8,340 bases of DNA from Prevotellaceae bacterium (GTDB lineage: Bacteria; Bacteroidota; Bacteroidia; Bacteroidales; UBA932), in contig JAIROQ010000014.1 of NCBI GenBank assembly GCA_031257455.1, forward strand, positions 1-8,340, read 5' to 3'. The position numbers and the translations under genes are program-made. The notes below the pieces were generated by a model. That model had not been told where the DNA came from, searched no databases, and worked only from the letters and a program-made list of their open reading frames with translations. Shown one piece after another: positions 5,129-8,224 of this stretch (within the stretch, counting starts at the first letter, position 1; each line of letters begins with the position of its first letter).

Positions 5129-5136
5129 TATATTTG
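5129..5136 (+). promoter_or_regulatory. Bacteroidota -7 box (TATATTTG) for thioesterase
   Basis: TATATTTG matches TAnnTTTG exactly and lies 33 bases before the ATG at 5170, in the 65-base gap after tsaE. The predicted transcript would start near 5142. No TTTG is seen at the expected -33 position. The box contains the TTG at 5134 that could be mistaken for the start codon of the gene. Confidence 0.5.
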
Positions 5137-5169
5137 CAGAGAAATACTGTCCCATTAAAAAACATTTGC

Positions 5170-5928
5170 ATGGACGCCGCTCAAAAAATACTTGTGGAAG
5201 AATATACCGTACCCACTTACCATGTGGATTTCGACCGGAAAATAACTGCGCCGAGCCTCCTGTTATTATTGCAGGAAGCCGCATGGAAACACGCCAACCA
5301 ACATGGTTTCGGATATACCCGCCTGCAAGAGAAAGGCGCATTCTGGGTGTTGGCGAAACTGCGACTGGTCATGTACCGCTATCCGCAATGGCAGGATACA
5401 TTGCGCATCGAAACATGGGGAAAAGCGCCGGAACTGCTTACGGCTTTCCGCGACTTTGAAGGCTTCGACCGGGAAGGCAATAAACTTTTTGCCGCGACTT
5501 CGGCATGGCATATCCTGAGTATTTCCGGCAACCGCCCGCAATCAATGGAATTTTTCAAAAACGCCTTTCCCATTGCCGAAGGGAAACATGCTATCGAGGA
5601 AAAGCCCGCCAAAATCCCCGCCGTTACAAATCTGCAGCAGGCGTTACCGGCCGCCGTCCTCCCAAGCGACATCGACATGAACCTGCACGTGAACAATACG
5701 CGTTATGTGCAATGGATAATAGACCGCTTCGATTTCGATTTTCTACAGCAGCGCCGGTTAATGGAAATGGAAATAAATTTCCTGTCGCAGGCAAAAATGG
5801 GCGATAGCTATACCATTACTACCGACAACCTGTCCCCTAACGAATTTATTTCATCGGTACACTGCGGCGACTACCACAAAGAATTGGCACGGGTACGCAC
5901 CCGGTGGGAGAAAAAGGGTTTCCTGTAA
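5170..5928 (+). CDS. Acyl-ACP thioesterase (FatA/FatB-like double hotdog)
   Basis: The 252-residue protein hydrolyses acyl-ACP to free fatty acid and ACP in the cytoplasm, judged by family. The N-terminal hotdog half (about 8-130) has the characteristic YHVDF at 17-21, LLLLQEAAWKHA at 31-42 and WVLAKLRLVMYRYPQW at 59-74. The C-terminal half carries the strongly conserved active-site segment DIDMNLHVNNTRYVQWIID at 167-185, with D169, N171 and H173 as the expected catalytic residues. In plant FatB a Glu lies 34 residues after the His. Here that position is Q207 within EINFLSQAKMGD, so the Glu may be replaced (by-eye placement). ATG 5170 is chosen because the open frame back to 5134 uses a TTG inside a promoter box. 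The gene probably has its own promoter and no link to tsaE. Free fatty acids may serve lipid turnover or export; the substrate length cannot be told. Confidence 0.88.
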   Translation: MDAAQKILVEEYTVPTYHVDFDRKITAPSLLLLLQEAAWKHANQHGFGYTRLQEKGAFWVLAKLRLVMYRYPQWQDTLRIETWGKAPELLTAFRDFEGFDREGNKLFAATSAWHILSISGNRPQSMEFFKNAFPIAEGKHAIEEKPAKIPAVTNLQQALPAAVLPSDIDMNLHVNNTRYVQWIIDRFDFDFLQQRRLMEMEINFLSQAKMGDSYTITTDNLSPNEFISSVHCGDYHKELARVRTRWEKKGFL

Positions 5929-6062
5929 AATCCTGTATTCAGGCATATCGTTTAGTCAGCCGGCATAAACAAACCTGTCCCACAAGCGTAATCGGCATGG
6001 CAAGCCCCTTCGGAACTTTGAGAATTAAGAATTGGCTGCCAAAAATAAAATTTGCAAAACTG
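5929..6062. other. Intergenic, no gene supported
   Basis: Nothing coding is supported after the thioesterase stop. A weak stem, CCTG at 5932-5935 with CAGG at 5940-5943, is too short and lacks a T-run, so no terminator is called. At 6018-6034 a fragment, TTGAGAATTAAGAATTG, looks like a remnant of the A/T word repeats seen elsewhere. An open frame from 5904 to 6137 overlaps the thioesterase end and has no recognisable protein features. Confidence 0.5.
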
Positions 6063-6093
6063 TTTGCAGATAAAAAATATTGTTTTATATTTG
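6063..6093 (+). promoter_or_regulatory. Strong Bacteroidota-type promoter with no ORF
   Basis: A -33-like TTTG at 6063-6066 is followed after exactly 19 bases by a -7 box TATATTTG at 6086-6093, a full match to TAnnTTTG. This is the only place in the window where I see both boxes at the expected spacing. Transcription would start near 6098-6100. The next credible ORF begins at 6646, so the promoter points at the structured segment at 6168-6322 rather than directly at a protein gene. Confidence 0.6.
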
Positions 6094-6097
6094 TGCC

Positions 6098-6322
6098 GTT
6101 ATTATGCTTCTTTGACATTTTGAAATTGATATATTAAAAATATATCGCTTTAACTTTTATTCGACGAGATTTCTGGAATCAGGAAAATTTCAACTATCGG
6201 TGAATAATAAGTAAAAGCAACCCTGCCAAGAGTGGAAATGGGTTGTTGTACTTATTCCGATAGTGGGTTTTCCTGAACCTCAGAAATCAATATGTACAGC
6301 ACTCATTCCACTCTTGGTTTTT
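6098..6322 (+). ncRNA. Candidate structured non-coding RNA
   Basis: A rod-like imperfect hairpin can be paired by eye: 6168-6175 with 6281-6288 (8 bp), 6179-6187 with 6268-6276 (9 bp), 6193-6200 with 6257-6264 (8 bp), 6206-6213 with 6249-6256 (8 bp) and 6217-6223 with 6240-6246 (7 bp including a G-U). Small internal loops and a 5-base bulge (6201-6205) separate the helices. The 16-base apical loop holds CCAAGAGTGG (6226-6235), exactly complementary to CCACTCTTGG at 6308-6317, which is followed by TTTTT (6318-6322). A small AU hairpin, GATATAT/ATATATC, lies at 6128-6146. The 5' end is set by the promoter at 6063-6093, or by a weaker one (TTG 6126-6128, TAACTTTT 6151-6158) that would start beside the closing stem. 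Possible identities are a 6S-like RNA or the Bacteroidales-1 motif, a leader or attenuator, or a decayed mobile-element end. The structure is seen; transcription and function are inferred. Confidence 0.45.
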
Positions 6323-6553
6323 CAGTGGCATAAGGACAAAATCATAGTAAAAGTTGAAGAAATGAATTGTAGAAAGTATTCAATAGAACATTCTGCAATC
6401 ATTGGCAGCGAATAAAAATTCGTAGCAGGGGTGTTTTTTAGATTACGCGGATTTATGCGGATTACGTGGACATAGTGCGGAATGAGGGATTGTTTTGATG
6501 AGTGTTTGTTTGGGGATAAATTAAGTGCAAAGCAATCCCGAAACCGCAAAAGA
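6323..6553. other. Intergenic A/T-rich stretch with one short repeat
   Basis: I see no supported gene. At 6441-6467 is GATTACGCGGATTTATGCGG followed by ATTACGT, which holds two forms of the word ATTACGCGGAT. The same word occurs inverted at 6973-6985. A minus-strand open frame (6322-6603) crosses the repeats, shows no recognisable protein features and is not accepted. Confidence 0.5.
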
Positions 6554-6581
6554 GGTATGAAGTATGAGGTATGAAGTATGA
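6554..6581. repeat. Perfect 14-base tandem duplication
   Basis: GGTATGAAGTATGA occurs twice in tandem (6554-6567 and 6568-6581) without mismatch. Each unit is itself built from the seven-base word GTATGAR, so it looks like slipped-strand expansion. It lies 65 bases before the lipoprotein start codon. Confidence 0.8.
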
Positions 6582-6592
6582 GCGCTGACGCC

Positions 6593-6648
6593 AAATTAAA
6601 CAATTAAACAAATAAACAATTCAACAATTCAACAAATAAACAATTATG
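6593..6648 (+). repeat. Octamer array running into a start codon
   Basis: Six eight-base units, AAATTAAA, CAATTAAA, CAAATAAA, CAATTCAA, CAATTCAA and CAAATAAA, fill 6593-6640. They are followed by CAATTATG, whose last three bases are the ATG of the lipoprotein gene. This takes the place of a Shine-Dalgarno site; A-rich leaders are known to favour initiation in Bacteroidota. The array may be part of a dispersed repeat, since AATTATGAA also begins porW and the gene at 7028. Confidence 0.65.
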
Positions 6649-6819
6649 AAAACAAAAATTTTCTTTCTTCTTGCGTGCCTGTTGCTGTTGGCGGCAGGTT
6701 GCGCTACACGAAAAACAACCACTTCCAATGTGGCGTGTCCCGTTTACTACAACGGTAATGACGAGCCGGCGGCGTCTTCCGGCGTGGTGGCCTATCCGGG
6801 AAAAAGGGAAATCCCGTAG
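6646..6819 (+). CDS. Small lipoprotein, possibly truncated by a repeat
   Basis: This 57-residue ORF starts MKTKIFFLLACLLLLAAGC, a clear lipoprotein signal with the lipobox cysteine at C19. The mature part, only about 39 residues, is TRKTTTSNVACPVYYNGNDE followed by a short tail. It has no acidic export signal after the cysteine, so a periplasm-facing inner-membrane or outer-membrane anchor is likely. I recognise no family. The last residues and the stop codon (6817-6819) lie inside a palindromic repeat: TAG falls in the loop of its first stem. The original reading frame may therefore have been longer and been cut by insertion. No promoter box is seen; the start is preceded by an A/T octamer array. 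It could also be an intact tiny lipoprotein. Confidence 0.6.
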   Translation: MKTKIFFLLACLLLLAAGCATRKTTTSNVACPVYYNGNDEPAASSGVVAYPGKREIP

Positions 6820-6964
6820 GGATTACCGTTCGGTAGAAAATGTACCGTATCTGCCCTTGCATTCCGTCAGGAATGCATCCAACCGCAAAAGGACGCATAC
6901 CCTACGGGATGCGGAGGCGAGGATGACCGGCATTTTCTACCGAATGTGCATCCCTGACGGGATG
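6810..6964. repeat. Composite palindromic (REP/BIME-like) element
   Basis: Four short palindromes occur in series: AATCCC-GTA-GGGATT (6810-6824), GCATTCC-GTCA-GGAATGC (6859-6876), GCAT(A)CCC-TAC-GGGATGC (6895-6912) and CATCCC-TGAC-GGGATG (6949-6964). A perfect 14-base inverted repeat, TTCGGTAGAAAATG at 6829-6842 and CATTTTCTACCGAA at 6931-6944, encloses the middle two. The loops alternate GTA, GTCA, TAC, TGAC, so the third and fourth are the reverse complements of the first and second. The whole is a near head-to-head arrangement, as in BIMEs. Such elements are moved by RAYT-type IS200-like transposases in other bacteria; none lies in this window. The element overlaps the 3' end of the lipoprotein gene. 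Confidence 0.75.
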
Positions 6965-6972
6965 ATTTCCTA

Positions 6973-7008
6973 AAATCCGCGTAATTCGTACTAATCCGTG
7001 TAATTCAT
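6973..7008. repeat. AATCCGCGTAAT word repeat
   Basis: AAATCCGCGTAAT at 6973-6985 and TAATCCGTGTAATTC at 6992-7006 are two forms of the same word. The first is the exact inverted copy of 6442-6454. With the A-rich AACAAAAAAAACAATTATG tail at 7012-7030 it forms the leader of the next gene. No TAnnTTTG box is visible. Confidence 0.6.
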
Positions 7009-7027
7009 CTTAACAAAAAAAACAATT

Positions 7028-8224
7028 ATGAAAAAAATTCTTCTTCCTTTTCTTTCCCTTACGGGACTGGGCTTTTCTGCTTTGGCACAAAGCCACATTA
7101 ACATCGAACTGCTCAGTGCGACTTACACTGCGCCGGCGGTGCAATTCCGCGTATCATGGAACAGCATCCCTGCTGCAGACGGTGAAACGCACCATTCCAA
7201 AATCTGGCTGTGGGTGGATTTTCGTAAAATAGAAAACAACCAGCCCTCCGGCACGTGGACACGCGCTACCGTTTCCAGTCCTTCGCCCGGAACAGTTGCG
7301 CCGGAAACAACCAAAGGTTTCTGGTTGCAAGGGAACAGCGGCAGTTATAGCCAAATCGTAACGGTAGCATTACCGGATATCCCGGCAAATACCAAATTCA
7401 ACTGGTGCGCTTATGCTTCCGACTGTCCACCGAATGTAACGGTGACGAACGGCACATATACTTTCAAAGGCACGCCGCCGTTTACATTGATAGCATCCGA
7501 CGGGACAACAACCCAAACAGTAACCGGAACAACACTCGCAGCTTCGGCATTGACCGTTACGCCGACCACAATAAGAGATAAAACGGAATGTCCGGGCGTT
7601 TTCTGTATTTACACCGGCAACGATTTGTATATAGATGTCGACCACCTTTGCCAACAGCGCACCGGCGGTGCAAAGAATTGGGAAGCATATATTAAAGACA
7701 TTCGAGATAATCATGTTTATCGCATTGTACAAATGCCAACCAATACCTGGTGGATGGCTGAAGATTTAATGTGGGACGGGAAACCCAGCCCGTCAGCCAC
7801 AGGTTATACAATTCGTGGGTATGCCCGCAGTTGCGGCACACATTATGGATGCGGTCGTTTTTATGCAGCTACCGCGCTCGGTCATGGAATATATGCGGGT
7901 GATGCAAATAGCCGCGGCGCCTCCGATGTATGCCCGACAGCCTGGGCAATACCGTCCGTGAATGAATTGTGTCCATATGCTAATAGCACTGATAGCCCCC
8001 AACCGTATTTGGGTTCCGATGAATTTGGCGGTCCCGATACATACGGTTTATCGTTGTGGTTATGCGGCACCTCGGGCTGGACCTGCGGCACAGCTCATAC
8101 AAGTTATCCTGGGGGTTTCGGCGGCTGCTTTAGGTTCTACCGGAATACTCGCGTGGGTGAAAACGGCTGTGGTGAGCAGAGCACTGCAGGAGGTCGCAAT
8201 GTCCGCTGCGTGCGGGACTTGTAA
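7028..8224 (+). CDS. Secreted Cys-rich protein with C-terminal FISUMP domain
   Basis: The 398-residue protein has a Sec signal peptide with an AXA site (A18-L19-A20, cut before Q21). Residues about 22-180 are a Gly/Ser/Thr-rich, beta-like module containing KIWLWVDFRKIEN (58-70) and TKGFWLQGNSGSYS (95-108); I cannot name its family. Residues about 222-398 match the FISUMP (Fib_succ_major, TIGR02145) pattern: IRDNHVYRIVQMPTNTWWMAEDLMW (225-249), DVCPTAWAIPSVNELC (300-315) and the terminal VRCVRD (392-397). It holds 14 cysteines, 12 of them from residue 188 on, suggesting disulfides and an extracytoplasmic location. The end lacks a recognisable T9SS C-terminal sorting domain, so export beyond the periplasm is unproven. 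FISUMP domains have a C-type-lectin-like relation and in some genomes are targets of diversity-generating retroelements. No promoter or terminator is seen, and the gene appears intact. Confidence 0.8.
   Translation: MKKILLPFLSLTGLGFSALAQSHINIELLSATYTAPAVQFRVSWNSIPAADGETHHSKIWLWVDFRKIENNQPSGTWTRATVSSPSPGTVAPETTKGFWLQGNSGSYSQIVTVALPDIPANTKFNWCAYASDCPPNVTVTNGTYTFKGTPPFTLIASDGTTTQTVTGTTLAASALTVTPTTIRDKTECPGVFCIYTGNDLYIDVDHLCQQRTGGAKNWEAYIKDIRDNHVYRIVQMPTNTWWMAEDLMWDGKPSPSATGYTIRGYARSCGTHYGCGRFYAATALGHGIYAGDANSRGASDVCPTAWAIPSVNELCPYANSTDSPQPYLGSDEFGGPDTYGLSLWLCGTSGWTCGTAHTSYPGGFGGCFRFYRNTRVGENGCGEQSTAGGRNVRCVRDL

Follow-up and report, generated by a model that had tools for sequence, protein, structure and literature searches.

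A widespread structured RNA of the Bacteroidales, apparently undescribed and predicted to be a cis-acting leader upstream of FISUMP-type genes

What is the long rod-like hairpin that lies in a gene-free region of this Prevotellaceae genome, and what might it control? The window, the whole 8,340-nt stretch of DNA analysed here, is contig C2 of draft genome G000 (1.59 Mb, 225 contigs, 80% complete; G and L numbers are our labels for genomes and loci). A preliminary description had placed five stacked helices in a stretch without a credible gene, and both points hold: 5929-6645 contains no credible gene, and the rod comprises 41 pairs in five helices from 6168 to 6288, closed by a 16-base loop at 6224-6239 (Table 1). 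Folded in silico, 6160-6330 reaches a minimum free energy of -59.5 kcal/mol, whereas shuffled versions average -36.1 (z -6.32, with none of 200 shuffles equal), and the fold of 6100-6441 gives z -6.63, equalled by none of 100 shuffles. The rod forms the centre of a longer conserved unit, about 340 nt in length (6100-6441), that extends past the interval delimited earlier, 6168..6322. This unit includes a pairing absent from the earlier account, in which the apical loop at 6226-6237 is fully complementary to 6306-6317 and would form a 12-bp pseudoknot.

Table 1. Positions of the RNA element, its parts and the genes discussed in the text (window coordinates unless a locus is named)
Feature	Position	Strand	Remarks
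Acyl-ACP thioesterase gene	5134-5928		upstream flank of the RNA element
Predicted promoter, TTTG (6063-6066) and TATATTTG (6086-6093)	6063..6093	+	read from sequence; conserved in the 71-copy alignment
boxA-like site TGCTTCTTTGACA	6105..6117	+	just past the predicted start; TGCTCTTTGACA in some other copies
5' hairpin GATATA/TATATC	6128..6146	+	96.1% of cells paired; both-side change in 2 of 6 pairs
Closing stem	5' strand 6148..6159, 3' strand 6348..6359	+	97.9% of cells paired; both-side change in 4 of 12 pairs
Rod-like hairpin, five helices	6168..6288	+	folding and pair covariation; kept across genomes
Rod helix 1	6168-6175/6281-6288		8 bp
Rod helix 2	6179-6187/6268-6276		9 bp
Rod helix 3	6193-6200/6257-6264		8 bp
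Rod helix 4	6206-6213/6249-6256		8 bp
Rod helix 5	6216-6223/6240-6247		8 bp
Pseudoknot, apical-loop strand CCAAGAGTGGAA	6226..6237	+	87.7% of cells paired; both-side change in 9 of 12 pairs
Pseudoknot, 3' strand TTCCACTCTTGG	6306..6317	+	followed by a T run, 6318-6322; own-versus-swapped complementarity
Possible competing hairpin CCACT/AGTGG	6308-6312 with 6324-6328	+	89.0% of cells paired
3' hairpin ATTGTAGAA/TTCTGCAAT	6366..6399	+	93.1% of cells paired; both-side change in 5 of 9 pairs
Small hairpin GCGAAT/ATTCGT	6408..6423	+	near the end of the conserved block in the window copy; 84.9% paired; both-side change in 3 of 6 pairs
FISUMP-type gene, downstream of the element	7028-8224	+	signal-peptide-like start by eye; front conserved, end variable
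UG38-class RT genes, GIIM domain	L112:4980-6116 (G002), L113:2391-3533 (G001), L114:5315-6451 (G007)		PADLOC RT_UG38

Is this fold kept among homologous copies? An nhmmer search of 80 fetched loci returned 102 matches, some of them to flanks only, and 71 were counted as full length; omission of the two shorter than 270 nt gave alignment A1 of 69 genus copies, 45 of which make up alignment A3 (less than 80% alike, the two most divergent omitted). Across the 86 pairs of the structure, 91.9% of the cells in A1 can pair, compared with 82.6% in shuffled and 37-46% in slid alignments. Both sides have changed in 49 of these pairs, and the cells with such a change number 558 against 179 when shuffled; for neither measure was any of 500 shuffles as high. 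RNAalifold, given A1 unaided, drew 68 pairs, 39 of them with compensatory changes, which make up the closing stem and much the greater part of the rod; it missed the AATAAGTA/TACTTATT helix in that alignment, and the program cannot draw pseudoknots. The pseudoknot is also supported by swapping strands: across families, 3' strands fit the apical strand of the copy they belong to better than apical strands taken from elsewhere (21.0 versus 18.5; 0 of 2000 permutations as good). Across genomes we used alignment A4, which holds 39 chosen matches from 39 sources, namely 27 of 28 order-wide loci (the near-duplicate L188 was omitted) and 12 others. In A4, which was fitted to the covariance model and leans towards that model's structure, 92.1% of cells pair versus 61.2% when shuffled, both sides change in 38 of 40 pairs, and the covariation score is 0.739 versus 0.173. 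Covariation, which the preliminary description had wanted sought in homologues, is strong both within the genus and across genomes.

The copies differ in how they end and in how the apical region pairs. The block that they share starts at the promoter, near 6055, and reaches about 6441 in the window copy; most other copies continue into a further hairpin (GGGTTGTTTT...AAAACAACCC, then GCTGC), the 3' side of which the window copy does not have. In the widespread form of the element, the apical hairpin is often GCTCACGC-TACG-GCGTGGGC and the 3' strand is CCCACGC-TTTTTT, and the two compete because both use the same arm. Copies of the genus form have the apical loop as the partner of this strand instead, and the apical stem is not competed for. 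For the possible competing hairpin at 6308..6328, covariation in the genus alignment is not clearly above that of shuffles.

How common is the element? BLAST found it at 28 places in the window genome, the window copy included, the others being 70-98% identical. Among eight relatives in the genus, there were many matches in G001, G002 and G007, four weak ones in G005, and none in the other four; among 31 genomes of other genera, only G038 gave any, two short matches. More came to light with R1, a covariance model built for the rod from 45 sequences. At E <= 0.001, weak matches included, it returned 47 in G000, 107 in G001, 61 in G002, 64 in G007, 11 in G005, 18 in G038 and 84 in G415 (Candidatus Symbiothrix sp. 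isolate Hs463_bin48), one each in G003, G006 and G008, and none in G004, G414 and G416; these counts come from at most 150 scored candidates per genome, and a few of the weak matches can be the same hairpin read on the opposite strand. Counted as non-overlapping places among the 150 matches listed (to about 75 bits), there are at least 24 in G000, 66 in G001, 26 in G002, 28 in G007, five in G005 and one in G038. In a sample of the order, at least 88 of 393 genomes and at least 65 of 207 genera have an R1 match (E <= 1e-5, the window's own genome included), a lower bound since only seven candidates were scored per genome. In a sample of the phylum, 12 of 296 genomes have a match at E <= 1e-6, again including that of the window. 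A phage origin was also considered and set aside: a single exact consensus pattern gave no match in viral contigs, a result that speaks to that pattern only.

Does the element belong to a known RNA family? None of the Rfam 15 families reaches its threshold in the window, and in a relaxed-E search the best matches lay far below threshold; this result covers families that have a model, unlike motifs such as Bacteroides-2 and GUCCY-hairpin of PMC2864571, whose motif table names several Bacteroidetes RNAs, two of them without an Rfam number. Our Rfam comparisons yielded only tRNA, 16S rRNA, DUF805 RNA and below-threshold matches, and every Rfam family was rejected as an identity for the element. 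Among these are 6S RNA and Bacteroidales-1, the candidates first put forward, neither of which matched. A literature search on structured RNAs, covering mostly papers outside subscription, found no title on the element among the matches listed. The element thus appears to be a real, widespread and apparently undescribed structured RNA. The rod shape and size of its core, along with the T run behind the pseudoknot strand, would suit a free-standing regulatory RNA, for example a 6S-like one. We regard that reading as barely plausible, given the missing Rfam match and the dozens of copies, most of those with room lying directly upstream of a same-strand gene. The original proposal of an undescribed structured RNA is supported; what we would amend is that the element looks more like a cis-acting mRNA leader than a free-standing RNA.

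What lies downstream of the copies? The protein encoded at 7028-8224 belongs to a family found after other copies of the element; its match to TIGR02145 (E 7e-8, 33.4 bits) is below the cut-off of 41.65. That cut-off is passed by six of eight other downstream proteins, seven from the FISUMP-type family and one from Symbiothrix, with none from the cysteine-rich subgroup; the two below it are those of L073 (35.9) and Symbiothrix L168 (23.4). In the genus, 34 copies leave 700 nt or more of contig on their downstream side; for 29 of them a same-strand gene of the FISUMP-type family follows no more than 700 nt away, although in three of these the mechanical frame starts inside the end of the leader. 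The five exceptions are L029, L030 (copy at 1772), L056, L061 and L101, that of L061 being the first copy of a tandem pair. The window itself has, between leader and FISUMP-type gene, a 57-aa lipoprotein-like frame (6646-6819), and L179 has a similar 83-aa frame in the same position; between the small frame and the gene runs an inverted sequence, TACCGTTCGGTAGAAAATG ... CATTTTCTACCGAATG (6824-6946). We also note repeats around GAATATCGAGTATCGAAAA at 130-280 of the window, upstream of a Mg-chelatase-like gene.

Outside the genus, the genes after the element are varied. Ten downstream proteins from the order-wide loci were scanned, and their matches include FISUMP, BspA-type repeat, lectin-like, Kelch, S74-peptidase-type and LytTR; two of these also carry a secretion sorting tail, and the other four proteins have no Pfam match. 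The orientation is constant: 27 of the 28 order-wide loci have their first downstream frame on the element's own strand, and the remaining locus is frameless over its 179 nt. The nearest upstream frame, by comparison, is on the same strand in 14, on the opposite strand in 11 and missing in three. G006 and G008 have one weaker match each, placed some 500 nt ahead of a frame that by eye resembles nuoA. A cis-acting leader would be expected to sit upstream of genes in a fixed orientation, and the element is most likely such a leader RNA.

Could the copies instead be mobile, as a MITE-like or other repeat or as a recombination cassette, with promoter and hairpin carried along by chance? In favour, single genomes have dozens of scattered copies, and 35 of 69 have less than 700 nt of contig downstream, so that the assemblies break there. 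Yet copies up to 30% apart in sequence retain their pairing by compensatory changes, the conserved block begins at the promoter, the orientation to the downstream gene is fixed, and in two clear cases (L088/L059 and L073/L098) the same two upstream gene families recur in two genomes. Identity of 70-98%, compensatory pairing and fixed orientation before genes together disfavour a MITE, and we consider a mobile repeat highly improbable.

How would a leader of this kind act? The promoter recognised earlier, which we take to be of the Bacteroidetes type with the consensus TAnnTTTG, is indeed present and is common to the other copies of the family. In A1, the promoter TTTG...TATATTTG is followed by a boxA-like TTCTTTGACA or GCTCTTTGACA, a designation that presumes the letters of E. 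coli boxA. The pattern TAnnTTTG, with [TC]TC[TC]TT 13-16 nt later, occurs in 68 of the 71 genus copies, and within the fetched loci a boxA-like site follows 86 of the 91 TAnnTTTG sites that lie inside elements and 6 of the 597 that lie outside; the genus copies being homologous, these counts are not independent. By eye, four of the six sites outside look like further unrecognised leaders. The 16S leader of G005 has a similar GTTCTTTGATAA after a TATACCTTTG promoter. We also looked at 59 other copies, 39 being those of A4 and the remaining 20 coming from the genus and from Symbiothrix. A boxA-like hexamer lies upstream in 26 of them, versus a shuffled mean of 11 and maximum of 17, and promoter and boxA lie within 35 nt in 18; with the hexamer in only 26 of 59, boxA is not a universal part of the element. 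On the + strand, the region 5930-7030 yielded no call of a simple intrinsic terminator.

We tentatively propose, with slightly less than even confidence, that the element is a boxA-type antitermination leader controlling the downstream FISUMP-type gene in cis. First, the element would be transcribed from the promoter at 6063..6093 as the 5' leader of that gene. Second, its boxA would recruit NusB-S10, and the rod-and-pseudoknot fold would set whether RNA polymerase reads on. The switch may be a swap in which the apical pairing and the 3' strand, which the T run follows, replace each other. Observation supplies the starting points of this proposal: the fold with its covariation, the promoter-boxA spacing in the genus, the orientation, the amplification and the spread across the order. 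Against it count the patchy presence of boxA in the 59 other copies, the lack of a called terminator, the genus-form pseudoknot that leaves the apical stem uncontested, the five genus copies with room but no same-strand FISUMP-type gene, and the varied genes beyond the genus. A cis-acting leader could also work by another route: the conserved internal loops of the rod may be the binding site of a protein or small molecule through which translation or attenuation is controlled, with boxA incidental. By eye, the internal-loop letters (GAAA...ACCTC and TTTCAA...GGGT) are kept across genera while the helices change freely, boxA is missing from many other copies, and, where the element has its widespread form, the apical stem faces competition from the 3' strand with its T run. 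This route leaves the fixed promoter-boxA spacing of the genus copies unexplained, and we judge it rather unlikely, if worth serious consideration.

Which other genes might share the leader? A PF00078 search found reverse transcriptases (RTs) in G001, G002, G005 and G007, and none in G000 (80% complete), G003, G004, G006 and G008. The RTs of L112, L113 and L114 match PADLOC RT_UG38 with E values of 1.4e-51 to 2.5e-54; identity to the G002 protein is 75% for G001 and 87% for G007. In L112 and L114, a divergent RNA copy with promoter and boxA-like site lies upstream of the RT gene, and in L124, from Symbiothrix G415, a copy lies just downstream of the RT. In L113, the RT gene comes after an ftsY-like frame, with no RNA copy directly upstream. 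In L112 and L114 alike, a short membrane-like ORF separates the leader from the RT gene (about 4855-4965 in L112 and about 6470-6580, on the - strand, in L114), and repeat-like frames lie 3' of the UG38 RT in L112 and L113. Among about 5.8 billion proteins, a word-based search turned up 59 homologues of the UG38 RT; the named hosts are Prevotellaceae and Tannerellaceae MAGs, Candidatus Symbiothrix, a Bacteroidia bacterium and Dysgonomonas termitidis. Literature searches, covering mostly papers outside subscription, found none on the UG38 reverse transcriptase and none joining FISUMP and reverse transcriptase.

These neighbourhoods raise another possibility, that the RNA is a substrate or guide of the UG38 RT and that the FISUMP-type mRNAs are thereby targets of reverse transcription and diversification. 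The RT is present in the copy-rich G001, G002, G007 and G415 and was not found in G003, G004, G006 and G008, which have 0-1 copies; a divergent copy adjoins the RT gene in G002, G007 and G415; and the genes that follow the element combine a conserved front with strongly divergent ends. N-terminal parts of the FISUMP-type family align well (L080 and L085, from one genome, are 90% identical over 601 nt), and L053 and L084 align further (about 1030 columns, 73%), while the C-terminal parts of the cysteine-rich subgroup share little except the cysteines. Yet, read by eye in seven sequences, the codons at the FISUMP ends vary at all three positions, with no adenine-type or NNC-only pattern, which tells against adenine-directed mutagenesis of these ends. 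In part of the family the C-terminal divergence is extreme and framed by cysteines.

The distribution speaks against a guide RNA as well. In the sample of 393 genomes from the order, a search for the UG38 RT (E <= 1e-10) gave only two weak matches, of 21-33% identity, against the many genomes with the RNA fold, and a one-to-one linkage of RNA and RT was not found. G038 (96% complete) has its 18 RNA matches without a UG38 RT, and G414 has the RT without a model match. G000, with many copies, and G005, with 11 matches, also gave no UG38 RT, although completeness is only 80% for the first and 63% for the second. Where a genome carries dozens of copies, finding one beside an RT gene is not very unlikely, and the RT gene of G001 has none directly upstream. 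The order-wide searches, together with G038 and G414, make an RNA of the UG38 RT no more than a rival reading, which we hold to be improbable. The RNA being far more widespread than the UG38 RT, we read the RT as one more gene likely under the same predicted leader, that is, as a member of its regulon.

Finally, if the leader is such a switch, what would follow? The RNA class is large and backed by covariation, it occurs in at least about a fifth of the order's genomes in our sample, and Rfam 15 lacks it. Dozens of copies before a variable repertoire of predicted surface proteins suggest one shared RNA switch for that repertoire. Furthermore, the divergent copy before the UG38-class RT gene makes a link between expression and diversification directly testable. 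In a bolder form, which we think quite improbable, the leader would both switch on and mark the mRNAs of hypervariable surface proteins for diversification by the co-expressed UG38-class RT; dozens of dispersed genes would then be diversified from their own messages, by a distributed, template-free relative of diversity-generating retroelements (DGRs).

How does the element compare with known systems? Like the ncRNAs of retrons and DRT systems, it is a structured RNA with a closing stem and pseudoknot, near a UG-class RT in some genomes; unlike them, it occurs in many genomes without a detected RT and in dozens of copies before other genes. Like DGRs, it is associated with FISUMP-type variable proteins, and by eye G005 has a DGR-like locus (L111:3-3831) with a FISUMP gene bearing a VR-like end, an Asn-rich TR-like frame and a different RT; unlike in DGRs, no template repeat was noticed near the UG38 RT, and the window genome, 80% complete, has no RT match. 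In L161 of G038 we noticed, again by eye, a DGR-like RT beside a formylglycine-enzyme-like variable gene. DUF805 RNA (RF03081) is likewise a leader element near start codons in genomes of the same order. It differs from the element in sequence, and its model has no match in the window. In L194 and L199, two of 20 loci scanned, it lies 38 and 44 nt downstream of the element, and we considered whether it is the 3' half of the same RNA. With the element upstream in only two of 30 DUF805 loci (L233, which is the same place as L199, and L236), that idea was rejected, and the two are separate leader elements. A search for literature on DUF805 RNA or DUF805b, covering mostly papers outside subscription, found none.

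Two further parallels are leaders that govern termination. To our knowledge, the rod with its pseudoknot has no counterpart among boxA antitermination leaders, and we know of no structure common to the element and the UpxY-controlled leaders. The element resembles the boxA leaders of rrn operons and lambda nut in having a boxA-like sequence right behind the promoter and then a structured leader, with a similar site in the 16S leader of G005; it differs from them in that no boxB was recognised and boxA is absent from many other copies. PMC10250234 describes boxA as necessary and sufficient for rrn antitermination complexes. The UpxY-controlled capsule operon leaders of Bacteroides fragilis, in which UpxY proteins prevent termination according to PMC7819879, resemble the element in placing control in a 5' leader, in serving parallel surface loci and in belonging to a related group of bacteria.
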